A stretch of DNA of 31,962 nucleotides from a virus. Below the pieces are notes generated by a model. That model made no database searches. It was not told where the DNA came from and saw nothing but the letters and a program-made list of their open reading frames with translations. The stretch spans positions 1 through 31,962 of IMG/VR virus record IMGVR_UViG_3300032242_000899. One strand, written 5' to 3'. The position numbers and the translations under genes are program-made. Positions 3,156 through 31,962 of this stretch are shown one piece after another; within the stretch, counting starts at the first letter, position 1, and each line of letters begins with the position of its first letter.

Positions 3156-3301
3156 TACAAGTCCGCACCTGCTGGATGCTGAATGTTCATGAGCAAGTTA
3201 CGGAGTTGCCATGTCTCGTCGATAAGCCACTGAATCTGGTCAGTCGTGATGGACTGATCCTTGTACCAGTTGGTCTCGATTTCTAATAGGGCGTCCTCCA
3301 T
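3155..3301 (-). CDS. 48-residue acidic helical protein
   Basis: The short product is acidic and Trp-rich (three Trp), predicted mostly helical, with no cysteines and no membrane segment. The frame is open further upstream, but the start at 3301 gives a TAATG junction with the stop of the HslV-like gene, and the stop overlaps the next start the same way. Because it is immediately coupled to the protease-like gene, it could be a partner, inhibitor or adaptor of that protein; this is inference only. Confidence 0.55.
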   Translation of the reverse strand: MEDALLEIETNWYKDQSITTDQIQWLIDETWQLRNLLMNIQHPAGADL

Positions 3302-3813
3302 TATGCCTCCACCGTCACAAACGTATGGTCTGCGGTGCAATCAGTCCACTTAGCGGCCGCTTCGAAAGCCACCGTGATACGTAGACGTGATGGGCCGTAG
3401 TCCTCGCTGGAGTAGAGGGAACCGAGAGCGAACTGGGCGCCGGAGCCGATGGCATGAAAGTCACCAAAGATGGCGATGTGTCCGAGGTCAGGCTGAATCT
3501 CGAACCATTGACCGGAGTACCCGATAAGGAACGTAGTGTCCTCATTCTTAAACTCTGCCTCGCGCCATGCCTCTGCAATCGCCGCTGTCATGTCATGGAT
3601 GTTGCAATCGGGACTGTCAACATCTAAGTCCTTTAGAGCTTGGACGCCTAGTTCCCCTCCTCGCCACGAACCGGCGAAACCGATAGCGACTGAACTACCG
3701 ATTCGGTAGACCTTGGGTGTGTCTGTTACCACCATGGTCTGTCCGTCTGATGCTGACTTGTCGCCAGCTATGTAGAGATCAACTCCATTTGTGTATCCGA
3801 TAATGGTTGTCAT
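3301..3813 (-). CDS. HslV/proteasome-like N-terminal-nucleophile hydrolase
   Basis: A 170-residue protein, close to HslV in size (about 175), with no propeptide. After removal of Met1, Thr becomes residue 1. Counting from it, Asp17 (in Ile-Ala-Gly-Asp), Lys33 (Pro-Lys-Val) and Gly47 (Gly-Phe-Ala-Gly) fall at the canonical numbers of proteasome beta subunits and HslV. A Gly-Ser-Gly at 122-124 corresponds to the conserved Ser129 region, and Asp157-Asp161 lies where the C-terminal Asp/Ser pair is expected. The likely activity is threonine peptidase, perhaps in a self-assembled ring. HslV normally needs the HslU ATPase, and none is present here. The start is fixed by an ATGA overlap and GGGAAG six bases upstream; a longer upstream frame would bury the nucleophile. 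It could instead be a non-proteolytic Ntn hydrolase or an Anbu-like protein. Confidence 0.8.
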   Translation of the reverse strand: MTTIIGYTNGVDLYIAGDKSASDGQTMVVTDTPKVYRIGSSVAIGFAGSWRGGELGVQALKDLDVDSPDCNIHDMTAAIAEAWREAEFKNEDTTFLIGYSGQWFEIQPDLGHIAIFGDFHAIGSGAQFALGSLYSSEDYGPSRLRITVAFEAAAKWTDCTADHTFVTVEA

Positions 3814-3998
3814 GAAAACTTCCCTGGTATTGGCCCTGTGTAGGGGATTACTTCGTTGCCTGGCATAAATACTTTGCCACAATGGTTGCAGATAACACGG
3901 TCTCTGCCTACCGATGAAAGGTGTAACTCCCATCGGTGCTGGTCTCGCATACTCGCTGCAAGGTCTTCTCGACGCTTACGCGCCTCACTAGTAGTCAT
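3810..3998 (-). CDS. 62-residue CxxC protein
   Basis: The N-terminal third is basic and helical. It is followed by His21 and His26, then Cys37-x2-Cys40 (Cys-Asn-His-Cys) followed by Gly-Lys-Val-Phe as in a zinc knuckle; the C-terminus is Pro/Gly-rich. One zinc could be held by the Cys pair and the upstream histidines. It lies between the annealase and the HslV-like gene, with TAATG before and ATGA after. Possibly nucleic-acid-binding; no family recognised. Confidence 0.6.
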   Translation of the reverse strand: MTTSEARKRREDLAASMRDQHRWELHLSSVGRDRVICNHCGKVFMPGNEVIPYTGPIPGKFS

Positions 3999-7544: not shown

Positions 7545-7780
7545 TTGATACTTTCTTGTCCCTTGTGGTAGGAAATGTGGTTTTCCAGTTCGTGCTGGGT
7601 GTCCTTCACCATGGTTTCGATACGGTCAACGGCATCTCGAAGGCTGGTACCGGAGTTGGGCTTAAGTTCGTGGCGAATCTTCTGCCAGAGCAAGCGACCT
7701 AACCATGCAGTTAAAGCGAGCGCAGGAGCCGTAGCCGTTGAGTAGTTGGCAAGGTCTCCCCAGTGGAGTGAACCCATCAT
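7541..7780 (-). CDS. Small single-span membrane protein of the lysis cassette
   Basis: The 79-residue product has one hydrophobic segment (about 15-33) followed by a basic stretch and a long charged amphipathic helix (about 46-75). This is the layout of phage accessory lysis proteins, antiholins and some minor holins. It overlaps the endolysin stop as ATGA and the next start as GTGA, so all three lysis genes are translationally coupled. Holin, antiholin and spanin-like roles remain open. Confidence 0.65.
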   Translation of the reverse strand: MMGSLHWGDLANYSTATAPALALTAWLGRLLWQKIRHELKPNSGTSLRDAVDRIETMVKDTQHELENHISYHKGQESIK

Positions 7781-8256
7781 GCGGCGTACTCAATCTTAGG
7801 CCACTTTTGGGTGGTGTCATAGCGAAAGTACTGAACAGGTCGATGGTCATCAGAGGCCCTACAAAAACTGGGGTCGCCCTCTTGTCCAAGACTGACGAGT
7901 AGTGGGTTCTTGAGATCCTTTTGCACGACTACGGCAACATGCTGGGTCGAGAGAGGTTGACCAACGTTGAAGATTGCCAGGTCGCTAGGACGCGCCAAGG
8001 CAGCTGGAACCCTGCGCCCATTCCGAGCAAGGGTTTCCGTATTGCCATAGCCGTTGTAGTGGTACACGGGGCCGTTGGGGTCGCCAGCACCGGCTACCCG
8101 ATAGCAGAGCGCCGCAAAGCTGGAACAGTCAAACTTCATCACCTTGCTGATGACGTACTGAACCGGACGGTATTGCAGGTAGTGAAACAGTTTTTTGTTA
8201 TGAACTGCCCAGACTGCGAACCAGCCGATATCGTTTGCTACATCTTTATTTGCCAT
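7777..8256 (-). CDS. NlpC/P60-like endolysin
   Basis: A 159-residue papain-like peptidase, predicted to cut peptidoglycan at lysis. The catalytic Cys44 lies in Phe-Asp-Cys-Ser-Ser-Phe and the His106 in Gln-His-Val-Ala-Val-Val, the standard (unpermuted) NlpC/P60 or CHAP order; the third polar residue is not certain. There is no signal peptide and no added cell-wall-binding domain, so release through a holin is expected. TAATG joins it to the fibre-like gene upstream and ATGA to the first membrane protein downstream. Confidence 0.8.
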   Translation of the reverse strand: MANKDVANDIGWFAVWAVHNKKLFHYLQYRPVQYVISKVMKFDCSSFAALCYRVAGAGDPNGPVYHYNGYGNTETLARNGRRVPAALARPSDLAIFNVGQPLSTQHVAVVVQKDLKNPLLVSLGQEGDPSFCRASDDHRPVQYFRYDTTQKWPKIEYAA

Positions 8257-17316: not shown

Positions 17317-18396
17317 CTACTGGTCTGCTGGTGCAATGTTGGGGTCGTTGTAGGTCAGCGATGAGGTGCTGGCTACGGCACGAACCGATGCCTTACGGAA
17401 ACCACTGTAACCACCGAGCCAGTACCAACCAAGTGGTACGAAGCGACGGAGGTAGTCGGTGATAGGACCAGGAACAATGTGAGGAACGGCACCGTTGCCA
17501 TCGACAATCGAGTGAGCCTTAGCAAGACCCTGGCGACCCATGCAGATTGACAAGTACACGTCACCGGCAGGGTTGCCCGAGAGGCCCGAGTTCTGCTGGT
17601 CAGCAGGAGGCGTGAAGGAACTGTCAGCGTAGACAGGCGCACGTGGGGTTTCGATGAAGCGGAAACCTTCGAATGCACCCATTTCACCCGACCAGATTTC
17701 ACCTGGCTGCGAGTAGACGTGGGGGAGGCGCCATCCGGCGGCTCCGGTGTCCTGCTGGATGTCGAATACTACGTCGGGGTGGACGTAGGCAACGTAGAAA
17801 CCACCAAAGGCAGCAACGTTGCTTGCACGAAGCGCAGCGCGCTGCTTAGCAAAGTCGGAACCCTTGGCCGTAGCACCCGTACCAGTGAAGGTCGTGGAGA
17901 CGTTGGATCCACCGTTGGTGCCACCCGTAGGAGTACCGGTGACGGTAGCGGCAAGCGTACCGGCGCCAGCGTTGTTCCAGTAGGAAGAACCGTTGGTCAT
18001 TACGAAGTCACGGAGGACGTTACGTGCAATGCTGTCAAGGGACAGACCAGCGTTGTAACCGATTACGTTGGCGACAACTGGGTCGATTTCAACGAATGAG
18101 GTTCCACGGAGCTTAGCGGTTGTGAGTACGGCGTTACCGTATTCAGCCAACGAAACCGTGACAGTGCTGTCGCTAAGTGCAACAGCGGAAATGTCGCTGA
18201 CTTCGGAGATGGCAGTGGAAGCGACTGGAAGGTCGTTAACAATGGTGAACTGAACCGACGAACCAGGCATTGACTGGGCGGTCGGCATGACATCTGCGGC
18301 TTGGTCAAAGTAAAGCTCGGGACGGAGTGCGAAGTATGCAAGCCGGTCGTAAGCCTTCTGTGAAAAGTCGAGACTGGAAACTTGAGTGATTGCCAC
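17317..18396 (-). CDS. Major capsid protein, N4-gp56-like
   Basis: The 359-residue product forms the icosahedral shell. It begins with a short helical arm, has a region around 77-100 (Thr-Val-Thr-Val-Ser-Leu-Ala-Glu-Tyr-Gly-Asn-Ala-Val then Thr-Thr-Ala-Lys-Leu-Arg-Gly) and later Tyr-Val-His-Pro-Asp-Val-Val and a Gly-Glu-Met-Gly-Ala-Phe-Glu-Gly-Phe-Arg-Phe-Ile-Glu block. Both patterns are typical of the N4-gp56 major capsid family, an HK97 fold. The start is GTG with AGAGAA upstream. No prohead protease gene is recognisable in the window, which fits a coat that is not N-terminally processed. It follows the scaffold gene by 37 bases. Confidence 0.85.
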   Translation of the reverse strand: MAITQVSSLDFSQKAYDRLAYFALRPELYFDQAADVMPTAQSMPGSSVQFTIVNDLPVASTAISEVSDISAVALSDSTVTVSLAEYGNAVLTTAKLRGTSFVEIDPVVANVIGYNAGLSLDSIARNVLRDFVMTNGSSYWNNAGAGTLAATVTGTPTGGTNGGSNVSTTFTGTGATAKGSDFAKQRAALRASNVAAFGGFYVAYVHPDVVFDIQQDTGAAGWRLPHVYSQPGEIWSGEMGAFEGFRFIETPRAPVYADSSFTPPADQQNSGLSGNPAGDVYLSICMGRQGLAKAHSIVDGNGAVPHIVPGPITDYLRRFVPLGWYWLGGYSGFRKASVRAVASTSSLTYNDPNIAPADQ

Positions 18397-18433: not shown

Positions 18434-18925
18434 CTAAAAACTGCCAGGAGGAGTAATACCGAGTTCGGGATTGCTTCGAGCAAACTTTGTGATCACGGCC
18501 ATTGCATCCTTTTCCGAGTTGGCATCTCCCATTTCGGCAAGAAACGCTTGTCCAGCATCTACCGGTGGATTGCCACCAGCACTGGTTGCGGCTCCTGCAA
18601 CGCGACGGAAACTGTCGAGTTCGGAATCTGACACGGAGTTGTCTTGACCTTGATGGTCGGAGTTACCAAGTACCCCATACTTTGCAGCTTCGGCTTTAAC
18701 AGCCTCTGGGGTATTTTCGCCCTGGTATGCCACACGGAGCAGTGCGCCCACACCATCCTCGGGGATTCCAGCCTTAGCAAAGGCAAGTTCCTTTTGGAGT
18801 GTTGCTAACTGTTCCCGTGAGGATTGCACTTCTTGTGCTACCTTTTGGGCTTCACGTAGCTGTTTCCGAATGTTCGGATCCAATACGTTAGTATCTTCGG
18901 TTTCTTCAAGTTCAAAGTTGTCCAT
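18434..18925 (-). CDS. Scaffolding protein
   Basis: The 163-residue product is acidic at the N-terminus. Residues about 20-55 form a clear coiled coil (Lys-Gln-Leu-Arg-Glu-Ala-Gln-Lys and so on), the middle is Gly/Asn-rich and flexible, and the C-terminal helix ends in Pro-Gly-Ser-Phe. This layout, together with its place immediately before the capsid gene, is typical of phage scaffolds, which guide shell assembly and leave before packaging. ATG 18925 is preferred to 18940 because AGAGAG lies just upstream. It is the first gene after the 373-base gap and so may start a transcription unit. Confidence 0.75.
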   Translation of the reverse strand: MDNFELEETEDTNVLDPNIRKQLREAQKVAQEVQSSREQLATLQKELAFAKAGIPEDGVGALLRVAYQGENTPEAVKAEAAKYGVLGNSDHQGQDNSVSDSELDSFRRVAGAATSAGGNPPVDAGQAFLAEMGDANSEKDAMAVITKFARSNPELGITPPGSF

Positions 18926-18947
18926 GTCGCTCTCTAGCATTTACGCA

Positions 18948-19313: not shown

Positions 19314-20732
19314 CTACTGGGCGTACCCTGCACCCTTGACACCGGACTGGTCTGCCAGCATCTGACCACCAGCCTTCGACGCTTGTGCGCGTTCCTGTTG
19401 GGCTTGCTCGACCTGCTGTTGTGCGCCTAGTTGGTCGGTGCCGTAGCCTCCGATAGCGGCTCCAAGAACGTTCTCGGAACTAGCAGTGGTCTGATTGGTC
19501 ATACCGTAAGACTGCTTCTGCAAATCACGGAGGGAGTTCGCTTGGTCAACTGCCTTATTTGCCGCCTCTTGGGATACACCCGAGAATGGGTTGTCGATGA
19601 GGGCGGTAAGTTTGTTGCCTTGGTCGGCGTTGATACCGGCACTAGCACCACGTACCTGCATTGAAGCACTAGCCATCTGATCCTTGATGCGCTCGTAGCC
19701 GTTAACAGGATCAAGAATGTAATGCGCCGCTTGGCCAGGACTAAGATTCCATTGCTTTTCCAGCATATCTTTAACACCTTGGGGAGCATTCTGATACGCC
19801 TCGACTGCTAGTTGGGCGCGCTGGGTCAAAGTCTGGGGAGTGATGTTATTAGCAATCATGGACGCAGTAGTCGCAGCGTCAAGTTTTGGCATGCCGTATT
19901 GTGCCATCACTGTCTGATAATCAGTGACTGCCTGCTGATACTGTGCTGGGGTTTGTACGTTGATGGCATTGCCCGTTTGGTGTGCCGTGACTAAACCAGG
20001 GAAATCTTTTTGAAATGCCTGAACGGTCTGCGCCAACGCACCGGTTGACCCCTTTGGATCATAGAGTGCGCTCTCGATTTGCTTGGCAGTCCAGCCGGAG
20101 TTCACCGCTTTAATAATCTCATTTTGCACAGCTGGTTTGTCAAAGGTTGGCCAATACTGCATAAATGCATCTACGCTGTCGTAGTTACGGTTCTGCGAGT
20201 AAGTCCAGTTCTTCATAATGGCGCCGCCAGAAGCATTGGACTTGTAAGGGTATGTGGCAACGTAGGAACTAATAGTGTCAGGTGCCGATGTAGGAACTAC
20301 GCTTACACCGATGCGGTTAGCCGCATCTCCCATGGCATTGTTAATAACGTCTCGCATGTGGAGAAAAGTGCCTTGTGTTTGCCAGTTTTTGTAGGCTTCA
20401 CCGCTTTTTTGACTCATTCCAAGCGTGGAGAACAGCGTATCAAAAGCAGAGTTTTGCACCCCTGTCAGTTTGTTATCATGGCGCATCATGGTCAGTGCTG
20501 CTATGTCCTGCGACGAAACGTAGGACGTGCCGTTGATATTATCAAGTCCAAGACCCTTACCGATATCGGAGTATGAGACAGGGATGTACACTCCAGTTTG
20601 AGTAGCCCACTTGCCAAACTGACGTGCAGCAATCGCCTTTTTGTCGCCTACTAGATATTTTTTAGCGTAATCAAGTTGCTTAAGTGTACCGGTACTATTG
20701 GCATTGGAATCTAAGATGTTGGAATCAGCCAT
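19314..20732 (-). CDS. Probable internal virion (ejection) protein, 472 residues
   Basis: A Gln/Ala/Asn/Ser-rich, mostly helical protein. The N-terminal 100 residues contain Tyr/Gly-rich turns. The middle (about 200-340) is helical with several Tyr-Gln and Gln-Thr runs. The C-terminal 90 residues form a Gln/Ala coiled region ending in Gly-Gly-Gln-Met-Leu and Gly-Ala-Gly-Tyr-Ala-Gln. No catalytic motif is seen. Composition and position, after the giant protein and before the scaffold, fit an internal core or ejection protein that leaves the capsid with the DNA. It starts two bases after the upstream stop. Confidence 0.5.
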   Translation of the reverse strand: MADSNILDSNANSTGTLKQLDYAKKYLVGDKKAIAARQFGKWATQTGVYIPVSYSDIGKGLGLDNINGTSYVSSQDIAALTMMRHDNKLTGVQNSAFDTLFSTLGMSQKSGEAYKNWQTQGTFLHMRDVINNAMGDAANRIGVSVVPTSAPDTISSYVATYPYKSNASGGAIMKNWTYSQNRNYDSVDAFMQYWPTFDKPAVQNEIIKAVNSGWTAKQIESALYDPKGSTGALAQTVQAFQKDFPGLVTAHQTGNAINVQTPAQYQQAVTDYQTVMAQYGMPKLDAATTASMIANNITPQTLTQRAQLAVEAYQNAPQGVKDMLEKQWNLSPGQAAHYILDPVNGYERIKDQMASASMQVRGASAGINADQGNKLTALIDNPFSGVSQEAANKAVDQANSLRDLQKQSYGMTNQTTASSENVLGAAIGGYGTDQLGAQQQVEQAQQERAQASKAGGQMLADQSGVKGAGYAQ

Positions 20733-20734
20733 CG

Positions 20735-21295
20735 TTACGCCTTTCGTGGAGTGTGGAGTAGGTTATGAAGTTCGCTCAACACAGCATCCTGCTGGGCCTG
20801 TCCTTTTTCGGTCTTGTGGAAACCGAACTCTGGGTTTGTCAGGAGTTCCTGGCGCCAGTGTTCTAATGACATGGGGGTAGGGCGTCCAGTCTTCTCGTCG
20901 ACATTACCTGTAAGAGCCTTATTCCAGTTTGGGTCGGTAAAGTTAGGCTCCACCTCTTGCCCGAGGGTCTGCTTTGCCAGCATGCGGTACGGATCGAGAA
21001 GCGCCTTGACAGGGATACCTTGCTGGATTTGTGGTGCAAGCGTGGGGTAGAGACCTGATGCCATTTGCTGAATGTATTTTGAGAACTCACCGACTGCCTC
21101 GGAATGCTTCGTGTGGCGACCTGCAAGGTTCTGGCCCCAGTCCTTGATTGCTTCAAAGTCCATGGGAACGTGGTTGTCTTCGGCTACCTTCTGCAAAGCA
21201 CCGAGGACGTGGAAGTTGTGCAGGGTATCATCTCCCTGTGGTGTGGCGTCCATGGTTGGAGTAGCTTCTGGCATAGTTTCGTTAGGCGTTGTCAC
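20735..21295 (-). CDS. Hypothetical virion-block protein, 186 residues
   Basis: A soluble, helical protein with a disordered Thr/Pro/Met-rich N-terminus (1-25). It has a helical core containing Trp53, and Asn-Leu-Ala-Gly-Arg-His, Tyr-Pro-Thr-Leu-Ala-Pro and Pro-Met-Ser-Leu-Glu-His-Trp-Arg segments, with no cysteines and no membrane span. The start is GTG and overlaps the end of the giant gene by 14 bases. Because it lies between two putative internal virion proteins, a chaperone or core-protein role is plausible; no family recognised. Confidence 0.55.
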   Translation of the reverse strand: MTTPNETMPEATPTMDATPQGDDTLHNFHVLGALQKVAEDNHVPMDFEAIKDWGQNLAGRHTKHSEAVGEFSKYIQQMASGLYPTLAPQIQQGIPVKALLDPYRMLAKQTLGQEVEPNFTDPNWNKALTGNVDEKTGRPTPMSLEHWRQELLTNPEFGFHKTEKGQAQQDAVLSELHNLLHTPRKA

Positions 21296-24200
21296 TTAGC
21301 TTTAATCCTCTAAAAATCGAAATGTAACCTGATGTGATAACAGGGTGTTGCTTGACAAAATCAGTCAAGTAGGCTTTCCAGTCATCTTCGAATGACTGCT
21401 TCCAACCAGTACCTGCATACTGCCAAGACTGGTGCATCTCATCATACTTACTAATGATTTGCTTTACTAATGGTACCGTTTCTTTAAAACCAGTGCGGTC
21501 GGAAAGATTTTGGACACCAGTTTTGCTGTTAAGCATGTCTCGGACTTCCTTGAAAGCGGCTACACGAATAACCTTGGTGTCACCTTGACTTTGCGCCCAA
21601 ATGGTGTTCTGACTTCGGTAGTCGCGCTTAAGTTGCGAAAGTAGTGCAGGATCATCTCCACCCTGGTCTTTGACAAACTTCGGCAAGAACTCATAGGCAT
21701 ACCAGTTGCCCTCTTGTCGACGTGCTTCCTTGTACACCGAACGGGCATCAAGGTTAATACGCGAACCAGAGATTTGTTGATTATGGTATTCCGCAGAATC
21801 AAACTTTGCACCTTCCTTTGTGTGTGGTACAAAAGCCAGCGCGCCAGATGGGTATTTGTCGAATACATCAGGGTTAGCATTAGTGATACGTGACATATCA
21901 ACGGTTGCCTGTAACGGTAGACCTGTTGTTGAAGCGGTGCTGTGTGCGGCGAACCAAACGGCATCAAGATTGTCATTGTACAACTTGGCTAGTTTGCCAC
22001 TATCAAGACCAGCAATCTGTGCATCACGGACAAGTTTTTCCAACTCTGGTCGAGCAGAGGTAAGTTGCAATGATAGAGGCGAAACAAACGAAAGAACAGA
22101 TCGAGCGGCGTAAAGAGCTAATGCACCTTGCTTAGTCTCGTTAAGCATTTGATTCATCGACTTGTTTTGCCACATTTCCTTGATCGGCCCAAGGACAACT
22201 TTGCCGTTCTCAATGATTCCTGTTTCTACCAAGTGGCGAGCATTCTCTCGAACACTGTTGGCGTATTTGGCAGGTTGCTCTGTCTTGTATGCAGGGTTGC
22301 TCTTATCAAAGTAGTTTTGCATGTACTTTTCTGCAATCATGTACCGTCTGCGGTTTTCTTGCGCCAAAGCGTCCATCATCAGGCTCACCTGAATAGCGTG
22401 AAGTTGCATCGTAACCGAGTTACGACCACCTAGTTGAAAGGCCGCTAGTGAGGTGGCAGCTCGAATACCAGAGTTAGGTACCATCATTTGAAAAGTGCTG
22501 GCATTAGCGCCGATTTTGCCAAGGATTTGTTCGTTAGCCTGCTGAATCCACTTTTGGTGAGGGAATCTCATAGCAAGTTGACGTAATGGGAATGCTACTG
22601 CTGGCCCGAAATCAGGCTTAATAGAATCGAGCAACGAAACGGCACTGCCAGGGTTGCTACCCGTGGGGTCAGTCCAAGGCATAACAGATGCCAACGAAGT
22701 AAGTGATCCGGTTAAACCAATCGGTACTCCACTAGCAGGAGCCATGCCAAAAAAGTGCAAAACGTCAGTAGCATAACGACCAACCATTGTCGAACCTGGC
22801 AACAGCATTCCATTTTGATTGTCTAGGTTAGCCATGGTGTCAGCGCCATAGTGCTGCATAGCGAGCATAGAACGAACATACGCTTGGAAACGGGCTGGGT
22901 CTTCAATAGCAAACCGCCCAGCTCGACGGAGCGCCTGATTCTTAGCAAACCAGAATGGGAGATAGGCTCTTGACCATTGTTCTAGGACGTATCGGTCAGC
23001 AGGGTTGTGAACGAATGAGATAGCCTTAATGACTGCGCGCTGGCGAGCAATATTACGAGCCACCGCTGGGTCAAGGTCTTTCCATTGCTCTAGGTGATCT
23101 AGCGCCTTGTTGTACTCCATGAGATACAAAGGCTGGCGGCTAAGAGTGTCAATGATGGGCTGGGAGAACCGGTCATGGATTGCGCTAGAGGCGCGTCCAA
23201 TCGTGGCATTGAAAACATTGTCCATAAAACCACCGATTCCCTTGGCAGATGCCGTTGGTGTGGGAATGTAGTTAGGGAAATGAACGCTAGTTTCGCCACT
23301 AGTGTCTTTGTACTGTTCGGCAATGGAACGCTTGGTTACTGCACTCTTAGTAATGCGAGTAGTTGCTTTGTACTTTTCCGGTGTGTACTTGGCGCGAATC
23401 ATGTCCGATTTTTCTTTGTCGGACAAATCTTGGAACGCTTGATCCTTGTAGTCAGGAGCAAAGCGTGGGCCAACACGGGACGCTGGCAGACCAAAGTAAG
23501 TGTGTTCCTCTGGGGTCAACGTTTTAAGGTCGCTAAAGTCCTTACCCGAGTGCAGCAGAACTTCGTGATGAGATTGCATTTTGCCAGGAAACTTTGCGCC
23601 GGACGTTGCCCGTACATTAAGTTCACGGTGAGCTTCAATACGTGCTTGCTCTAAGGTTGGGCGTAGGTACAACTCTTGGATTCCCTCTGCTGTTTTAGGC
23701 AAGCGGTTGTTAGCAAGACGTTGGAGAACGTGGCGGTGGAACCGAGATTCCGTCATATTCTCAAGAGTGAATCGAGCGTTAGATGGGCCTCGACCATGGG
23801 TAAGCCACAGAATATGTGTCATCAGGCTATGCGCCCACTCACGGGTGGAATCAACGTCACGAAGTCGTCGAGACATAAGCTGACGTGCTTCTACGGAGTT
23901 AATGTCCGTAATGCCAGGGGTTGACAAAACTTCTTTTTGAATGCGCTCTAATGTGTCTCGGTTGATAGTTGCTTTACGAATAAAATTGTCGTAAGTCTTG
24001 GGGTCTGACCTCATAAGTTGCGACAAAGACGCCGTGATATTGTCTTCGGCCTCTTTCAGGCGCCAGCCAAGCGACATGCCAACATGTTGTTGCGGAGAAA
24101 GAAACTTGTAAAGGATTTGTGCTGACTTACGACCCACGGGGCTATTAGCGACATCATACAGTTGGCTAGATAAAGCCCTCATTGTGTCATCATTTAAAGC

Positions 24201-27200
24201 ACTCGATGGCAACCATGATCCGTTGGTATTACCCTTAGCAAGTTCATTACCTAAAACGCTGATTCTTCCGTCAACGTGCTGTGAACTTAAACCTCTTAAA
24301 TTGCCGCCAGTTTCTTTGATGTCTTGCGCTGCGCGCTCAACGAGCTTGCCTAGACCACCGCCTCGGGCGACACCCTTCATAAACTCATGTTCAACATCGT
24401 TTAAAGCTTGCAAACTATTATGAACTCTTTGCATAATCCAGTTGTGTTCTACTGAACCACCGATTTCTTCGCCAACAACCTGCTTGGCTCCGCGGTTAGC
24501 AGCTTCAATACCTTTAGCAACATGGTGGGCGAGTAGTGCCTTGCCGAACTCTTTACCACCAAGACGGAACATCGTAGCGATGGTTTCACTGCTAGACACA
24601 CGGGTAGCGAAACCAATAGTTGCAAGAGCCATAGGACGGAAATACTTGTCAATCAACCATTCACGGGTAAAATCGTGAAACATGTGTAGACCCTCGGATG
24701 TGTTAATCATCCGTTTTTCAGGAGCATCAAAAAACTCGTAGTTGCCAATCTTTTTTTGTACTTCTTCAACTTTTTGGTCAATCAGCGACTTAGATTGCAC
24801 CCCAAGGTCATCAAAGTATTTTTGAAGTGTCATCAAGTGATCAAGGTCATCGTTGTTTCGCTTTATCCCAGCAGCTTCATCATCAGTAATCTTTTTGTTT
24901 AAAGTAGTGATTTCATCAGAGATAAGATTTTGACGGTGGGCGATTTGAAGACGTTGCACTTCAAATGGACGACCAATGATTTCGGCAGCTTTGTCAAGTA
25001 CAACATTTTTCAAACTCTTGCTTCGATTGCTGGCAAGACCCTTGGCCACATATCGAATGTAATCATCAACAGCTTTGTAGTCAGGGAGCGTAATGAGGTG
25101 TTCGTGCGATTCAAGTAGACCAGCTGTGGGGTATTGCGAACTGCGCTGAAATGGGTTTCGACGGTCAACTACCTGGCTAATGTCAGCACCGGAATAGTTC
25201 CCAGACGCTCCACCACCACCCCATGCGTTAGCATACTCGTCCATAAGGGGAGCAAACTCTTTTTCTAAAACGTTACGTAGTTCAAGAGCATCGGTACGAC
25301 CGAGACCACCAGTACGAACTAGGTCTTGCAGAACCGCCTCGGAGTGGACATGGAATGTGTCACGGATAGCATTTTCAAAAACTACTTTCCATTCACGCGC
25401 ATTGGCAGTGTTGGCAAGACGGTTGATTGTCCAGTCAACAACATGAGGATCCATCCCCATAGCCAAAAACATTCGGCGGCCTAGGTCAAGTGATCGAGGG
25501 TCTCCAACCTTGATTTCTTTATTGGAGAAGTTCATCATGGCGTCAAAGTAGGTTGGCTTGAGGCTGACGGCACCGCGAGCAAGTTTGCCTTGTGCGCCAG
25601 GAGCTTTACGAGTTACTTTTTCTCCGGCGCGAGTATTACCTGGTGTAAAGCGGTTGCTTTCACGAAGTGCTGGAGTAAGTTCCTTTTGCGCTTCTAAGTT
25701 TTCTGTGTATTTCTTGTCTTTGTATTCCGTAAAACGTCCGTATGACGGCATGCGGTTTGGGTTGGCTAGTGCATGGGTCTCGACCGCCTTACCAAGAACA
25801 TTCACTACATCCTCTGGCGTTTCAGCGCGTGATAACAAATGAATCAAGTTGAGGGCTTGGTGGCCAGCTTCGGGGGTGACTGTGTTAGCGAACTGGGGGA
25901 ACACGCGAACGATGCGAGACGCGGAACTAACTTCTGCACCGTATTTGGCAAAGACGCGTCCCTCCAGCATTTTGTTAATCTGCTTCATCTGGCCACTAGC
26001 CTTAAGCAGATTTACTTTCTGGCGAGCCTCACTTGGTTTTTTACCGCTGGCAATGTGCTTACGGTAAATCTGGTCAAAGTATTGCTTTTCCTCTTTAGAT
26101 AAGGCTTCACGAAACTTTGTGTTTGCCTCTCGACTATGGGTGGCAATGTATTCAGCCATCTTTTTAAAAGCAGGATTGCTTTCGTACATGCGATACACGT
26201 CAGTTTTGCTAGTAAGTGCTGGGAGAGATTTGCCAAAAGGCAATGCTTTCATAACTCCAATGCTGGGATCGAAGTTAAACATGGTCAGCAAATCAGATAC
26301 ACCGGAAAGAGCATCAAAAGTAAAAGTGTTTTGGCGAAGACCAATCGAACTAGCCAGGTCTCGACCTAGCGAGACTGGGCGACCAGTGTTAGGGTCACGG
26401 TAGTTTTTACCGTCTCTAGTCGCCTCCCATGCATCTTTCCATCCCTTAGCCATTCCGGCAGCATCAGTATTGGCAGCAAGGTAGGCAGAAGTTTGGATGT
26501 TGATGGGAACTCGATAATGGTTCCATGAGTAGTTAAAAACCGAGTTCGTAGCGTTGGCGGCTCCCTTGAGACCCTTGCCTACGCCAGCAGAAAGACGGTC
26601 AAAGTTGTTTCCGTACTTGCCAGTAGCAGCGAGAAGTTCTGATTCAAGTGGATCAACAGAATCTTTAGCACCATGCCGGAGCGCAAGATCAGTGAGTCTT
26701 TTCAGGAGGGCAGTGCGCTCTGGGTCAGGCTTGCTAAGAATGAACTGGTGAGCCATACGGAGATACTGGGTGTGTTGCGATTCATTGCCAGCAGCTTGTG
26801 CCATTAAACGTAGTTCTGGTGCGTCAAGGAACTTGATAGCATCTTCGCCTATCATGGCGGCGACTTGCTTACGAAGACCAACAATCTCCGAAGCCTTTAG
26901 GAGCATGCCAAGACCCTTGGTAGCAGTGTGTAGCAAAATACCGCTACCGATTACGGCGCCAGCAGCTTCTGCGGCGGCAGCCTTACCTTGGGTAGCCTCG
27001 ATGTGGTGAAGCCACCGGACACTGTGCTGAATATTAGTAACAGATTCGATTAAGTTGCCAGCAGAGTTTGCTACCCCCATAATCCCACCGAAAACAGCAT
27101 GCCCGATTGGGTTGCCATCTTCAAATGAATACTGTTGGTTGCCCGTTGATTTGTCGATAGTTGTAGGTGTAGCAGATTCACCTGTGGCGTAGGCAACTCC

Positions 27201-27908
27201 ACGTTCAGCTTGAGTCAGACCCCATTGGACAGAGTTGGAGACCGATGTAAAAGCATTTCCTACTGCACCAAGTGTCTGCCCAAACACATCAGGAGCAAGA
27301 CGGTTAGCAGCGTTTTGAGCAGCGTTACTCCACCCCTCTTGGCTATTCATCAAATCACGGTAGACATAGGCAAGGTCACTCATAGTCGCCATGTGTCGCA
27401 TGTCATTAGCCTTGAGGTCTGACATGGCGGCTGCGAGAAGTAGTTGTGGGTGACGAATCAGGGTGCTGTCATTGCCTAGAGCGTGAGCAAGAGCAATAGC
27501 AGCATTTTCTTTTCCGGCTGCTGGATTGTCAATGTATGATTCAGGATGCCAAACCGAGTTGGCCTTTTTAAACCATGTGCCTTGCTGGTTCCCCGTAGGG
27601 TCAACACTGGCCATTTGCATGCCTTGATTTTTAGCCCAATCTGTTTTGGCTTTGCTTTGCCAGGTGGCTGCAAGATCTGGAGATAGTTGCTCCATTTGGT
27701 CAAGGCGGTTGGCTTCAATCTTGGCCTTGCGCTCGGCAGCCATTTGGTCTAGTTGTTCATGTGCGATAGCCGTGGGGCCAGATCCGACAATAGGTTGCTG
27801 GGTATCAACAGCAACTGCTCCGGTATGTGGCCGACTAGGGGCATACATAGGAGTAGAAGGCGGTGTTGCTGGCGCAGTTGCCGTAATCGGAGTTTGTGGT
27901 GTTGCCAT
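21282..27908 (-). CDS. Giant virion-associated protein, 2208 residues
   Basis: One uninterrupted frame covering about a fifth of the window. Residues 1-45 are Pro/Thr/Ala-rich and disordered. A glycine/alanine-rich hydrophobic stretch lies at about 308-338. Long helical regions follow, including coiled-coil-like segments near 1020-1060. Near 1643-1670 a block with Tyr-Leu-Pro-Phe-Trp-Phe-Ala-Lys-Asn resembles the amphipathic, aromatic-proline segments of large internal or polyvalent phage proteins. I found no lysozyme, ADP-ribosyltransferase, protease or RNA-polymerase signature by eye. Size, helical content and place after the portal fit an internal ejection protein analogous to T7 gp16 or an N4-type giant virion protein, but that is inference. 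TAATG joins it to the gene before. Confidence 0.65.
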   Translation of the reverse strand: MATPQTPITATAPATPPSTPMYAPSRPHTGAVAVDTQQPIVGSGPTAIAHEQLDQMAAERKAKIEANRLDQMEQLSPDLAATWQSKAKTDWAKNQGMQMASVDPTGNQQGTWFKKANSVWHPESYIDNPAAGKENAAIALAHALGNDSTLIRHPQLLLAAAMSDLKANDMRHMATMSDLAYVYRDLMNSQEGWSNAAQNAANRLAPDVFGQTLGAVGNAFTSVSNSVQWGLTQAERGVAYATGESATPTTIDKSTGNQQYSFEDGNPIGHAVFGGIMGVANSAGNLIESVTNIQHSVRWLHHIEATQGKAAAAEAAGAVIGSGILLHTATKGLGMLLKASEIVGLRKQVAAMIGEDAIKFLDAPELRLMAQAAGNESQHTQYLRMAHQFILSKPDPERTALLKRLTDLALRHGAKDSVDPLESELLAATGKYGNNFDRLSAGVGKGLKGAANATNSVFNYSWNHYRVPINIQTSAYLAANTDAAGMAKGWKDAWEATRDGKNYRDPNTGRPVSLGRDLASSIGLRQNTFTFDALSGVSDLLTMFNFDPSIGVMKALPFGKSLPALTSKTDVYRMYESNPAFKKMAEYIATHSREANTKFREALSKEEKQYFDQIYRKHIASGKKPSEARQKVNLLKASGQMKQINKMLEGRVFAKYGAEVSSASRIVRVFPQFANTVTPEAGHQALNLIHLLSRAETPEDVVNVLGKAVETHALANPNRMPSYGRFTEYKDKKYTENLEAQKELTPALRESNRFTPGNTRAGEKVTRKAPGAQGKLARGAVSLKPTYFDAMMNFSNKEIKVGDPRSLDLGRRMFLAMGMDPHVVDWTINRLANTANAREWKVVFENAIRDTFHVHSEAVLQDLVRTGGLGRTDALELRNVLEKEFAPLMDEYANAWGGGGASGNYSGADISQVVDRRNPFQRSSQYPTAGLLESHEHLITLPDYKAVDDYIRYVAKGLASNRSKSLKNVVLDKAAEIIGRPFEVQRLQIAHRQNLISDEITTLNKKITDDEAAGIKRNNDDLDHLMTLQKYFDDLGVQSKSLIDQKVEEVQKKIGNYEFFDAPEKRMINTSEGLHMFHDFTREWLIDKYFRPMALATIGFATRVSSSETIATMFRLGGKEFGKALLAHHVAKGIEAANRGAKQVVGEEIGGSVEHNWIMQRVHNSLQALNDVEHEFMKGVARGGGLGKLVERAAQDIKETGGNLRGLSSQHVDGRISVLGNELAKGNTNGSWLPSSALNDDTMRALSSQLYDVANSPVGRKSAQILYKFLSPQQHVGMSLGWRLKEAEDNITASLSQLMRSDPKTYDNFIRKATINRDTLERIQKEVLSTPGITDINSVEARQLMSRRLRDVDSTREWAHSLMTHILWLTHGRGPSNARFTLENMTESRFHRHVLQRLANNRLPKTAEGIQELYLRPTLEQARIEAHRELNVRATSGAKFPGKMQSHHEVLLHSGKDFSDLKTLTPEEHTYFGLPASRVGPRFAPDYKDQAFQDLSDKEKSDMIRAKYTPEKYKATTRITKSAVTKRSIAEQYKDTSGETSVHFPNYIPTPTASAKGIGGFMDNVFNATIGRASSAIHDRFSQPIIDTLSRQPLYLMEYNKALDHLEQWKDLDPAVARNIARQRAVIKAISFVHNPADRYVLEQWSRAYLPFWFAKNQALRRAGRFAIEDPARFQAYVRSMLAMQHYGADTMANLDNQNGMLLPGSTMVGRYATDVLHFFGMAPASGVPIGLTGSLTSLASVMPWTDPTGSNPGSAVSLLDSIKPDFGPAVAFPLRQLAMRFPHQKWIQQANEQILGKIGANASTFQMMVPNSGIRAATSLAAFQLGGRNSVTMQLHAIQVSLMMDALAQENRRRYMIAEKYMQNYFDKSNPAYKTEQPAKYANSVRENARHLVETGIIENGKVVLGPIKEMWQNKSMNQMLNETKQGALALYAARSVLSFVSPLSLQLTSARPELEKLVRDAQIAGLDSGKLAKLYNDNLDAVWFAAHSTASTTGLPLQATVDMSRITNANPDVFDKYPSGALAFVPHTKEGAKFDSAEYHNQQISGSRINLDARSVYKEARRQEGNWYAYEFLPKFVKDQGGDDPALLSQLKRDYRSQNTIWAQSQGDTKVIRVAAFKEVRDMLNSKTGVQNLSDRTGFKETVPLVKQIISKYDEMHQSWQYAGTGWKQSFEDDWKAYLTDFVKQHPVITSGYISIFRGLKLSDNA

Positions 27909-28378
27909 TAAATAACTGCGTACCGCATAAAGTCGGCAAGGTCACGAACAACTGAACTTGAGTATGGGCCTTTTGCCATGGTATCAAGTGCATCTAAAAT
28001 ACGCTGATGTTCAGGGTCACGCTGGATTACTCCACCAATGGCATTATTACGCCCTCCCTCATGGCTGTCTAGGTAGTCCTGGAAAGCAGTGGGATTATCA
28101 GGAGCATCATGGAGAGTAGGCGTAGGTGCGCTTAATGGGCTACTAGTCGCCTCGGGAGTTGGCATACCGGTTGGAGCAGGAGCAGGGGCTGGCATTCCAG
28201 CATTCTGACCTTCTAATGGCATGGCACGTTGGGCGGCACGTTGAGCGCCAGCTTCACCATAACCTTGACCGGTAGCAGCCTGGATAGGCAATGCTTTCGT
28301 GTCGTTTAAGTCAGTACGGTTAGCGTAAGCAGTTCCATCGGAACCACCTCGCTTGCCACCTTTACCAGCTCTCGGCAT
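27908..28378 (-). CDS. Proline/alanine-rich protein, 156 residues
   Basis: The N-terminus is basic and Gly-rich (Gly-Lys-Gly-Gly-Lys-Arg-Gly-Gly). The centre (about 55-90) is a low-complexity Pro/Ala/Thr/Met run. The C-terminal 65 residues contain a likely folded helical part with Phe-Gln-Asp-Tyr-Leu-Asp-Ser-His-Glu-Gly-Gly, Ile-Leu-Asp-Ala-Leu and a final Phe-Met-Arg-Tyr. It overlaps the zinc-ribbon gene by 17 bases and shares TAATG with the giant gene. The giant protein starts with a similar Pro/Thr/Ala-rich tail, so the two may interact. Function unknown; probably virion-associated. Confidence 0.55.
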   Translation of the reverse strand: MPRAGKGGKRGGSDGTAYANRTDLNDTKALPIQAATGQGYGEAGAQRAAQRAMPLEGQNAGMPAPAPAPTGMPTPEATSSPLSAPTPTLHDAPDNPTAFQDYLDSHEGGRNNAIGGVIQRDPEHQRILDALDTMAKGPYSSSVVRDLADFMRYAVI

Positions 28379-28532
28379 CGTCTACATCCTCTACTAACTG
28401 GATTAAATACAAATGACAGGGCATACAAACTGCTTGGTCAATCGTAGCATCATCATCAAGCGGATCGGGGAATAGTTCAACGTCTTCTTCTTTGCAACGC
28501 CAACATACGCCGAACACTCGAATCTCAACCAT
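28362..28532 (-). CDS. 56-residue zinc-ribbon protein
   Basis: The frame starts with an ATG sharing its A with the portal stop (TAATG) and ends 17 bases inside the next gene. The product has Cys10-x2-Cys13 (Cys-Trp-Arg-Cys) and Cys36-x2-Cys39 (Cys-Met-Pro-Cys-His), separated by an acidic stretch of Glu and Asp, then an acidic helical tail. It is a clear zinc-ribbon candidate. Lying just after the portal, it may assist assembly; no family recognised. Confidence 0.65.
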   Translation of the reverse strand: MVEIRVFGVCWRCKEEDVELFPDPLDDDATIDQAVCMPCHLYLIQLVEDVDDAESW

Positions 28533-30400
28533 TATTGGACAAGACCTCGTTCTGCGGCTGACTGATTAGAAGGTCGACGAAGACTTGAAAGCAATGATTG
28601 AAGGTCGCCTTGACCTGGTGCCGGTTGGATTGGTGCGCCTGGTTGACCGCCAGCGGCCATACCTGGCATTTGGTCAACCATGTTTGGCTGCTCTGGGTTA
28701 GCGGCCTCTTGTCCAGGGGGAGCCATCTCTTGTCCCTGCTGTTGAGCTTGCTGTGCCATGGCTTGCTTTTTCTGCATTTCCTCATGGACACGATTTACTG
28801 CTACTTCAAGAGGTACGTGTTCACTGGCCTTAATAACAGCGATGCGAGCAATGCTGGCAGGGTCAAGCTGGCCAGACGAAGCCTGCTGTTCTAGTCCTGT
28901 GAGCAGAGCCTGACGGATACCTTCAAGTTCAACTTGGTCGCGCTCTCTGGTTGGGTCTTCAATCGCTGGATCCATTTCACGTGCCGTTTGCTTCGACATG
29001 ATTCCTGTCCCCACGCGCTGTCCAATAGCGATAACCATTCCGTTGATGTCGGAGCCAGGGACAGAGTACTTGGCGTAACACAGGTCGGTTTCGAATGCTT
29101 CATTTGGTACATAGTCCTTTTGGGTAACGACACCAGACGTACCCATGACAAACTGACTTGGTTTGTCGCCATAATAAGCCTTCTGAAAGGCGATGGCACG
29201 TCGAATCTCTGCCTCCATACTAGCAGCAAAGATTTCTTGGTATTCCTGAATAGGCATGTCGATTGTGCTACCCATGACCATCTCGCCTCGACGAGCAGTA
29301 CGGATGTTCGAGCCTGATTCTCCACCAAACTCTGATGGGATACCAGCGGTGATGCGCTGGGCGCGCTCCAAACGATCTTGCGCCATTGCGCCGGCCTGCG
29401 AAGGTTGTATTCCAACCGTCTGCAACATACCGTTTTCAATCATTCCACGGCGACCCTGCTTACCATCGGCCTCCTCAACAATACGAGGCTTGCCGCTAGA
29501 GTTAGGGTGCGAGACAATCCATTCGTCTTGGAAAATGCTGCGGAATACGGCGATAGTCTCAAGAGCATCAAGTTTAGCCTGACGCTGGTACATACCAAAC
29601 AACTGGTCGAACTGACCGGAAAGACGGTCTAGGGTAACACGTCCTGGCATGACCACTGGGCAAATACCAGCTCGGTTTGGGATACGCTCCAAGACAGTTT
29701 GCATCGACCCACCAGATGACGGATCATTGTAGCCATTGGGGTTTCTCATAGCGCCCATGGCGACTAATACTGTTTCTTCGGCGTCTACGTATTCAAGTAT
29801 TTCAAACAGCGAATCTTCACGCTCTTTGGCGGTGTAGAGGACGCGAGCCTGCTCGGGGTAGTTGGCTCGAAGCCATGTCAAGGGTCGACGGTCAACGAAG
29901 ATGCAGTTTTCGGGTTCAATGTTGTCAGGGTCGTAAGACTGCGATGGGAATGTAGAAAGTGGGTTACGAGGGCGCCAATAGGGAATCTTGCGCTTGTCGT
30001 TAGGGTCAAGGGAGACTGGAGAAATGCTGACTGGGGAACTACCATATGCAGTCATAAAGCGAGCGCGTCGGCGCATCTTCATTGCATACTTGTTCATGTC
30101 CATCCAGCCAAGGGTGGCTAAACGGCGCTGGCGAGCCTTATCCTCGGATGCCTGAATGCCAGGTCGGAGGGCAGGGAATGCTACATCGGGCATAACCGAT
30201 GCAATCCGCATGGAGAACTGGTCAATGCCTTGGGCGATTAGGTTGGCAACCGCTGGCTGCTCAAGATCGTCAAGTTCTGGCAAAGGTACGACAATCTCAC
30301 CGTTGTAATGGCGTCGAGCTTCATCCATGCGTTGAATGACGGGCGCACGTTCACGACTGCGCTGATGGTACAGGTTGACGATTTCTTCTGCTGTTTTCAA
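28532..30400 (-). CDS. Portal protein
   Basis: The 622-residue product forms the dodecameric ring at the capsid vertex through which DNA is packed and ejected. The N-terminal helix, the Asn-Leu-Ile-Ala-Gln-Gly-Ile-Asp block, the Arg-Arg-Arg-Ala-Arg-Phe-Met-Thr-Ala-Tyr-Gly segment near 110, the Pro-Arg-Asn-Pro-Leu-Ser-Thr-Phe-Pro strand and the long helical region after 260 are as in HK97/SPP1-type portals of phages. The C-terminal 80 residues are Gln/Pro/Gly/Met-rich and disordered. The start overlaps the terminase stop by four bases (ATGA), the usual terminase-portal pairing. Unusual only in the long low-complexity tail. Confidence 0.88.
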   Translation of the reverse strand: MKTAEEIVNLYHQRSRERAPVIQRMDEARRHYNGEIVVPLPELDDLEQPAVANLIAQGIDQFSMRIASVMPDVAFPALRPGIQASEDKARQRRLATLGWMDMNKYAMKMRRRARFMTAYGSSPVSISPVSLDPNDKRKIPYWRPRNPLSTFPSQSYDPDNIEPENCIFVDRRPLTWLRANYPEQARVLYTAKEREDSLFEILEYVDAEETVLVAMGAMRNPNGYNDPSSGGSMQTVLERIPNRAGICPVVMPGRVTLDRLSGQFDQLFGMYQRQAKLDALETIAVFRSIFQDEWIVSHPNSSGKPRIVEEADGKQGRRGMIENGMLQTVGIQPSQAGAMAQDRLERAQRITAGIPSEFGGESGSNIRTARRGEMVMGSTIDMPIQEYQEIFAASMEAEIRRAIAFQKAYYGDKPSQFVMGTSGVVTQKDYVPNEAFETDLCYAKYSVPGSDINGMVIAIGQRVGTGIMSKQTAREMDPAIEDPTRERDQVELEGIRQALLTGLEQQASSGQLDPASIARIAVIKASEHVPLEVAVNRVHEEMQKKQAMAQQAQQQGQEMAPPGQEAANPEQPNMVDQMPGMAAGGQPGAPIQPAPGQGDLQSLLSSLRRPSNQSAAERGLVQ

Positions 30401-31962
30401 ACTCTAGTCCTCAACCAACTTGGGCGCCATGCTGTCGATTTGCGCTGATGCGTAGGCGTGTAGATATTAGGCAGGTTCCATTCACCAAACCACTGCGCCA
30501 TAACACAGTCATCGGTACGGCCATAAGGGTAGTGAGTTACCTCCTCTACCAGCTTAAGGCTAATGATTCTGCCTTCATTTCTCCATGGTAATCTTACACG
30601 ACCAAAGCGATAATGTGGGGCGATTGTCTCAACACCATATTCTCTATCGGTTTTATTGCGTCCAGTGTCGTGACCAATGATGTCCACGCCATACTGCGCT
30701 CGCCATCGACGAACGTGATCGTATTGAAGCAAAAACCGTTGTGCGGCGTTCTGTTCTACAATCCATGTGGAGATTGGGAACCCAAGCGAAATGCTCATGT
30801 TCTGCCAATCGTTCATTACACCGACAAACTCTCGGGTGTCTGGGTGATAGTCAAGAAAATCTGGTGCATCCATCTTTTGACGAATCAGGTCAATCAGGAA
30901 TCGTTGCTCTGATTCGGGGTGGTAGACCCACCATTGAATAGACCAGTAGTTAGTGGGCGATGGGTCAGCTGTGGCATAGGAAACACAGTCAGTAGCGTTC
31001 AACCCACGTGGTAGCTCGAGACGGTCTCGGTCTTTATCAAGGCATCCTGGAAAGTCGTCGTCGCCGTAAATCCATGGTTTAGGTACGAGTACCTCGGTAG
31101 GGTCGATGTCCTCCTGCTGATAAACAACGGTAAATCGCTCACCACGGTTTTCTCGAAGGGTCTGAATCTTGCGCCATGGCAAACGGCGAGGAGATAACAA
31201 ACATCCGTCAGGATACGCTTTGGCGTTCTTGCCATGTTCCCCAGTGCAAATGTCGTCATAGTGGGCTTTGAAAATAATGTGGTGATACTTTTTGTCTGCT
31301 CGGTCTAGTCGGCGCCCATCGTCCAATACTTCGGCGGCAGCCTCCTCATCCTCATCCTCCTCGTCAAGTGGAGAGGTCATGTCTAGGGCATAGCGGTAAA
31401 GATCGTCGGATGAGATTCTCTGACCCTGCAAGATAAGCAGTCCACCTGGCTCAAGACGGGTTTCACCAACGTCGACCCACATATCTTGCAAATCCTCTTT
31501 CTGTTCAAGGCTGCGGAGTTTGCGAGGGTCTACAAGGTCGTCCCAGATAACAAAGTCGTAACGTCCACCGATGAATGCCGTGTCTCGTCCGTAGGCAGAC
31601 CAGGTAGGTTCCTTTTCGGCAATGGCACCAGCATCGTCATACTGCATAACGATAAAAGCATCACTAGTCCACATTTCTCGGTCTAGTGGCTTAAACCGTC
31701 CAAAGTCCATGGCAAGGGTAGATTCGGCATCCAGTGCATCCCCACGTCGAAGCAAGGTCGGGTCTGCCTTTTCTGGTTGCACACGTTCTAATGATCTACG
31801 GAGACGTAGTACATTTCGCTTGGCAAGGCTCATAGTTGCGGAGCCAACCATCCCACGGATGTTGCGGTTTCTGACTGTTACCCATGCAGGGATGTCATGT
31901 ACAAAGCAAGCGGTCTTACCAGCACCAGGAGGAGCGTTGATAACTACGTATTCTTCGTTAGG
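30397..31962 (-). CDS. Terminase large subunit (partial, N-terminus outside window)
   Basis: The packaging ATPase-nuclease. The frame is open to the right edge, so the N-terminus is missing. Translation from 31962 shows the Walker A loop Ala-Pro-Pro-Gly-Ala-Gly-Lys-Thr, upstream of the in-frame Met at 31851, which is therefore not the true start. Counting from that Met, Walker B is Val-Ile-Trp-Asp-Asp (101-105) and the coupling motif Leu-Gln-Gly-Gln-Arg (141-145). The RNase H-like nuclease residues are Asp296 (Ala-Asp-Pro-Ser), Glu366 (Val-Glu-Gln-Asn) and Asp447/Asp448. A strongly acidic linker (about 162-180) separates ATPase and nuclease parts. No small subunit is in view. Confidence 0.95.
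   Translation of the reverse strand, partial: PNEEYVVINAPPGAGKTACFVHDIPAWVTVRNRNIRGMVGSATMSLAKRNVLRLRRSLERVQPEKADPTLLRRGDALDAESTLAMDFGRFKPLDREMWTSDAFIVMQYDDAGAIAEKEPTWSAYGRDTAFIGGRYDFVIWDDLVDPRKLRSLEQKEDLQDMWVDVGETRLEPGGLLILQGQRISSDDLYRYALDMTSPLDEEDEDEEAAAEVLDDGRRLDRADKKYHHIIFKAHYDDICTGEHGKNAKAYPDGCLLSPRRLPWRKIQTLRENRGERFTVVYQQEDIDPTEVLVPKPWIYGDDDFPGCLDKDRDRLELPRGLNATDCVSYATADPSPTNYWSIQWWVYHPESEQRFLIDLIRQKMDAPDFLDYHPDTREFVGVMNDWQNMSISLGFPISTWIVEQNAAQRFLLQYDHVRRWRAQYGVDIIGHDTGRNKTDREYGVETIAPHYRFGRVRLPWRNEGRIISLKLVEEVTHYPYGRTDDCVMAQWFGEWNLPNIYTPTHQRKSTAWRPSWLRTRV

Follow-up and report, generated by a model that had tools for sequence, protein, structure and literature searches.

Ejection of podovirus core proteins is established for T7 and P22, in which the internal proteins are encoded together in sets of three (gp14, gp15 and gp16 in T7; gp7, gp16 and gp20 in P22). 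In phage N4, the virion RNA polymerase gp50 is a giant of 3500 aa, and its gene lies close to an N4-gp56-type capsid gene. Several cargo proteins of crAss001 are predicted to be all-helical and are thought to unfold during exit (PMC10172136), and polyvalent proteins join several disparate domains in one chain (PMC5512222). The giant protein described here, P0001, belongs to a family that includes gp10 of the Streptomyces podovirus Manuel, which is annotated only as a hypothetical protein (phrog_10618).

The cassette between portal and capsid

The window (the whole stretch analysed, a virus record of 31,962 bases) is probably incomplete. All of its virion genes lie on the minus strand, and the features below are followed by tail and lysis genes.

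30397..31851, minus: terminase large subunit, possibly truncated by the end of the record (phrog_38, 1.7e-27)
28532..30400, minus: portal protein, from its position and homology to a ct2KA10 ORF that matches phrog_104
27908..28378, minus: small conserved gene (156 aa) between portal and giant, from neighbour profiles
21282..27908, minus: giant protein P0001 (2208 aa, 244 kDa, pI 9.2)
20735..21295, minus: g186 (186 aa), with a shared C-terminal domain (phrog_34303/6654) that is fused to NlpC/P60 in Manuel
19314..20732, minus: g472 (472 aa), the third protein of the cassette; an iterated profile connects it with Manuel gp14 (phrog_8424)
18434..18940, minus: probable scaffold protein (phrog_7813)
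17317..18396, minus: major capsid protein, N4-gp56-type (Phage_capsid_3 / phrog_1357)

A preliminary description had placed a giant gene between portal and scaffold genes, and it does lie there, separated from the portal gene by one small gene and from the scaffold gene by two others. Neighbour profiles show that the order portal, small gene, giant, g186, g472, scaffold, capsid is fixed wherever a contig reaches, and the position is kept in about 85 viral contigs as well as in cultured Streptomyces podoviruses. Streptomyces assemblies also hold contigs with the giant, g186 and g472 side by side, adjoining the capsid gene. Members of the g186 family have in common a C-terminal domain of about 130 residues, which stands nearly alone in the g186 of the window; elsewhere it is preceded by N-terminal parts of up to about 720 residues. 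Manuel has one copy with NlpC/P60 (E 2.6e-29) and a second whose annotation is glycosylase. The Streptomyces podoviruses have two such paralogues in tandem (L003:12627-15235), one with NlpC/P60 and one annotated as a glycosylase.

By analogy, P0001, g186 and g472 would be a set of three co-encoded internal proteins like those of T7 and P22. The gene order differs, however, and P0001 lacks a transglycosylase domain. Against the T7 ejection proteins, the set used for comparison, there is no detectable sequence similarity.

The giant frame, region by region

P0001 is encoded by one intact ATG frame of 2208 codons running from 27908 to 21282 on the minus strand; the single 6.6-kb frame had been reported earlier with no strand. 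It is a real gene under purifying selection, mostly outside the first 360 residues when compared with its nearest relative (L002, 80% amino acid identity), because substitutions between the two fall at codon positions 1, 2 and 3 in numbers of 358, 218 and 978 and because its ATG overlaps the stop of the upstream gene (TAATG). The regions of the protein are as follows.

27774..27908, minus: residues 1-45, Pro-rich head, predicted disordered (pLDDT about 30; 10 Pro in 45)
26826..27908, minus: residues 1-361, fast-evolving N-terminal region, 37-57% identical even to the nearest relative
26922..26978, minus: residues 311-329, mildly hydrophobic Ala/Gly segment (mean Kyte-Doolittle 1.26)
26052..26825, minus: residues 362-619, N-module, of which 476-575 is present in most relatives
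25620..26051, minus: residues 620-763, helical segment with 94% identity to L002, missing from most relatives
24927..25619, minus: residues 764-994, module mainly of the nearer clade, with a Gly-rich motif (WGGGGASGNYSGAD...)
24786..24941, minus: residues 990-1041, insertion hot spot, with 160-1089 extra aa in relatives
23979..24836, minus: residues 1025-1310, central helical module, mainly in the nearer clade (profile and model)
23232..23978, minus: residues 1311-1559, variable linker, partly with pLDDT <50; second insertion site in relatives
21285..23231, minus: residues 1560-2208 (about), C-core, kept across the whole family including Manuel gp10
22896..22982, minus: residues 1643-1671, family signature R...PF..A..Q..RR..R.....P, from alignment conservation

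Column occupancy shows that residues 1-361 are nearly missing from the rest of the family, and that residues 476-575 are its second most shared part after the C-core. The N-module contains an SG..D......DP motif at residues 535-548, and insertions in relatives cluster at positions 990-1041 and 1339-1536. A second motif, the Gly-rich WGGGGASGNYSGAD...H.H...LPD (window 25074-25241, minus; residues 890-945), recurs in the nearer clade. Conservation across the family is strongest at R1647, P1651, F1652, A1655, P1704, P1765, P1769, P1811 and P1944. The conserved residues of the C-core are mostly Pro, Gly, Arg and aromatic, with no invariant catalytic-type residues in the conservation analysis, and from the alignment they look structural rather than catalytic.

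Much of the preliminary description holds at this level. The Pro-rich head is borne out and is predicted to be disordered, and the aromatic-proline block it noted at 1643-1670 forms the family signature and ranks with the best-conserved blocks. The hydrophobic Ala/Gly stretch is present at 311-329 but is only mildly so: since this segment averages 1.26 and a Kyte-Doolittle scan of P0001 finds none reaching 1.5, there is no clear transmembrane helix. It had also found no recognised enzyme signature, and P0001 indeed has no Pfam match at E<=5, no PHROG enzyme match and no PHROG match of any kind better than 0.13. A PDB sequence search with P0001 gave no match, and neither did tblastn with P0001 and three relatives against 50,697 phage records.

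A family that reaches Streptomyces phage Manuel

Relatives were collected from IMG/VR using the capsid gene as bait, followed by an iterated P0001 profile over all open frames; the search set held 171 sequences. About 90 giant frames joined the profile, with lengths of 1,500-2,470 aa when complete. The ct2KA10-type giants entered at round 2 (E 1e-19) and gp10 of the Beephvirinae at rounds 5-6, and the best match of a reversed-sequence control reached an E of only 0.08.

Two further checks do not depend on this chain of inclusion. An alignment of the family members from viral contigs, made without any Beephvirinae, matches Manuel gp10 in hhalign over 531 columns (E 1.2e-14), and a Foldseek search with the predicted C-half of P0001 finds Manuel with an E of 6.6e-6 and probability 1.00. 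At the SG..D......DP motif, the N-terminal region aligns with residues 204-275 of Manuel gp10 in the same order (hhalign E 5e-4). P0001 has a C-terminal core homologous to that of the Manuel gp10 / phrog_10618 superfamily. The link came via profiles only, as a direct pair comparison of P0001 with Manuel gave no significance. The phrog_10618 profile does not match P0001 at E<=1, although two relatives match it (best E 0.003); because P0001 has no direct match to this PHROG profile, it is a distant superfamily member outside phrog_10618 itself.

Manuel gp10 and its Beephvirinae relatives share with P0001 the C-core, an SG..D......DP-like N-terminal motif, the gene order and a podovirus setting; the gp10 family also takes in Abafar, a podovirus by microscopy (PMC11536984). 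In contrast, Manuel gp10 has 1646 aa to the 2208 of P0001, the nearer-clade modules 764-994 and 1025-1310 were not detected in it, and the Manuel locus encodes two long g186 proteins, one of which carries NlpC/P60, and contains an additional gene of 271 aa. P0001 is thus not an orphan; it is a conserved giant of a known general kind, in an undescribed family. No match over its whole length to a well-described family was found.

Structure prediction, which had been proposed for each domain, gave a usable model for the C-half (mean pLDDT 73.8, pTM 0.59, almost all helix), which finds Manuel. The N-half model (pLDDT 50.5) is too poor for fold claims; its best match is Manuel again, at E 0.064. 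PDB searches by profile and by fold gave no significant match. In VIA-align the best Z was 6.1, over 61 residues of helical-repeat proteins and under the program's stated helical-noise level, and it was set aside.

Role, cargo and alternative readings

On balance we think it probable that P0001 represents a large and so far undescribed podovirus family of internal virion (ejection) proteins and is capable of carrying cargo. We favor this because the gene keeps a fixed portal-to-capsid position, the protein is predicted to be all-helical, like several crAss001 cargo proteins, and a neighbouring family carries NlpC/P60 in Manuel; because homology to Manuel gp10 is supported by independent profile and predicted-structure comparisons and that family includes the podovirus Abafar; and because of the Pro/Gly/Arg/aromatic core, the in-frame NADAR and DUF4326 domains of one relative, and the constrained summed length of the cassette. 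Judged from context, packaging and ejection of P0001 are most likely. Against this stand the findings that P0001 has no sequence or fold link to any proven ejection protein and no clear transmembrane helix, and the poor quality of the N-half model.

That relative, L135, has a 1089-aa insertion in the same open frame (L135:1-7293) with NADAR (E 9e-25) and DUF4326 (E 3e-33) matches. NADAR and two stretches of DUF4326 lie between family modules, at the hot spot, where NADAR would be the clear case of an effector. NADARs are described as reversing guanine ADP-ribosylation (PMC11125620, PMC11543638). A search of further inserts (L022, L025, L107 and L161 among them) for NADAR-like cargo found none; weak matches to ParB, PI3K, GNAT and SbcC in relatives were rejected as not localised or coiled-coil-like.

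In a set of 45 cassettes, longer giants go with shorter downstream parts (Spearman -0.76), and summed cassette length is 2788 +/- 165 codons, where an SD of 317 would be expected if the parts were independent. Independent contrasts on the capsid tree agree (r -0.66, sign-permutation p 0.002), with the limit that a few deep contrasts may drive the result. By group, rho is -0.44 among the shorter giants and there is no trend among the longer ones. We read the trade-off as a hint that internal cargo may be limited. A test for movement of the giant's extra part from g186 or a neighbour gave only one shared segment, of 46 aa, between the L032 giant (L032:1315-6279, aa 955-1000) and the N-terminal part of g186 in L146/L167 (E 8e-5), a possible domain exchange judging from sequence. 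It is tempting to view the whole family as a modular delivery chassis, with a packaged and ejected helical C-core, a hot spot that takes lineage-specific effectors, and a roughly fixed cassette mass in which the giant's gain is its partners' loss, though we hold this only tentatively.

Beyond a conserved cassette protein with a predicted helical and conserved C-core, conserved neighbours, a variable N-terminus and insertions, our picture of the mechanism is an inference, modelled on podovirus internal proteins and on crAss001 helical cargo proteins. Together with g186 and g472, P0001 would sit near the portal inside the capsid, anchored by its C-core. At infection the three proteins would exit through the short tail ahead of the DNA, unfold and refold, and may help build a path for the DNA through wall and membrane into the (probably actinobacterial) cytoplasm, with wall hydrolases possibly provided by g186-type proteins in some phages. 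P0001 has no clear transmembrane helix, so any channel would need a contribution from g472, g186 or amphipathic helices. Extra domains inserted in the giant chain would travel along as effectors, such as the NADAR of one relative; P0001 itself has no recognisable effector and therefore its role would be mainly structural.

With its gene between those for portal and scaffold, the giant could instead have a part in assembly, remaining in the head as an internal core or as a portal-scaffold adaptor. Its gene is placed before those for scaffold and capsid and its conserved core looks structural, but known podovirus core proteins are ejected, and delivered cargo accounts better for the size variation and the inserted NADAR, so we regard retention in the head as unlikely. 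Far less probable still is a divergent virion enzyme, for example an N4-type RNA polymerase or a lysozyme/transglycosylase. The size of P0001 and its N4-gp56-type capsid neighbour do recall N4. However, sequence similarity to gp50 and a polymerase profile match are both absent (PHROG, Pfam and hhalign), and hhalign against N4 gp50-54 and T7 gp14-16 gave no match of the P0001 family above shuffled controls. No T7-like single-subunit RNA polymerase fold is listed among the C-half matches, the N-half model being too poor for this comparison. P0001 also shows no lysozyme or transglycosylase domain (Pfam, PHROG, or hhalign against T7 proteins), no MuF or ART profile (Pfam, PHROG) and no DarB-type methylase or helicase domain (Pfam). 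The preliminary description was therefore right to see no T7- or N4-type polymerase, lysozyme or MuF/ART motifs. Its suggestion of a hidden enzyme is not sustained, as no enzyme profile matches P0001 and invariant residues of a catalytic type are absent from the conserved core; where enzymes occur, they are inserted cargo in a relative.

A possible but doubtful reading is that P0001 is an LPD38-type polyvalent protein; it would then be a multi-domain effector that is injected and has a diverged LPD38 domain as its C-core. The LPD38 region in gp20 of Bacillus phage Pony and relatives aligns with residues 1609-1679 of the family profile and has the same PF..A..Q......R.....P grammar. The score of 26.2 compares with 15.4 +/- 2.1 in 100 column shuffles (maximum 22.9), but such shuffles lose helix periodicity and a reversed control scores 20.3, and the hhalign E is only 0.06-0.07. 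Foldseek adds a match to M1IP02 (probability 0.89 but E 0.14), probably HTVC010P gp20 judging from its 504-aa length, and HTVC010P gp20 in turn is similar to the Pony LPD38 region (E 5e-26). The NADAR cargo of L135 would also fit. Pony gp20 is likewise a large phage protein with a similar signature, and the Pony capsid protein is a distant relative of that in the window, whereas Pony gp20 lies near the holin and the P0001 gene sits between portal and capsid. The Pfam LPD38 model misses P0001 and its relatives while recovering Pony at 2.6e-30; a single weak match, in L094 (13.7 bits), falls outside the signature and was dismissed. P0001 also lacks disparate enzyme domains. Altogether, the evidence is suggestive only that the family may be a remote LPD38 branch. 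The earlier proposal of a new type of ejection protein thus stands in that ejection fits the evidence and the family is undescribed; its novelty is reduced by the existing phrog_10618 entry and the possible LPD38 connection.

The analysis gives a name to a conserved cassette so far hidden behind the label 'hypothetical protein'; the podoviruses that carry it are a widespread group, with Streptomyces as host of the cultured members. This offers a testable account of how such phages may bring proteins into Gram-positive actinobacteria, and a NADAR within a likely ejected protein would be a possible counter-defence delivered ahead of the DNA.

Three other minus-strand frames in the window have matches of their own. 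A C-5 cytosine DNA methylase lies at 1366-2547 (PF00145, E 5.3e-68). The frame at 7777-8256, adjoining two small holin-like frames, is a probable endolysin, with a weak, below-cut-off match to CHAP/NlpC-P60 (E 1.7e-4). The frame at 3301-3816 starts MTTIIGYTNGVDLYIAGDKSA and has an above-cut-off match to Pfam Proteasome (PF00227, E 5.3e-6); on this match it is a predicted phage-encoded proteasome-beta/HslV-like protein.
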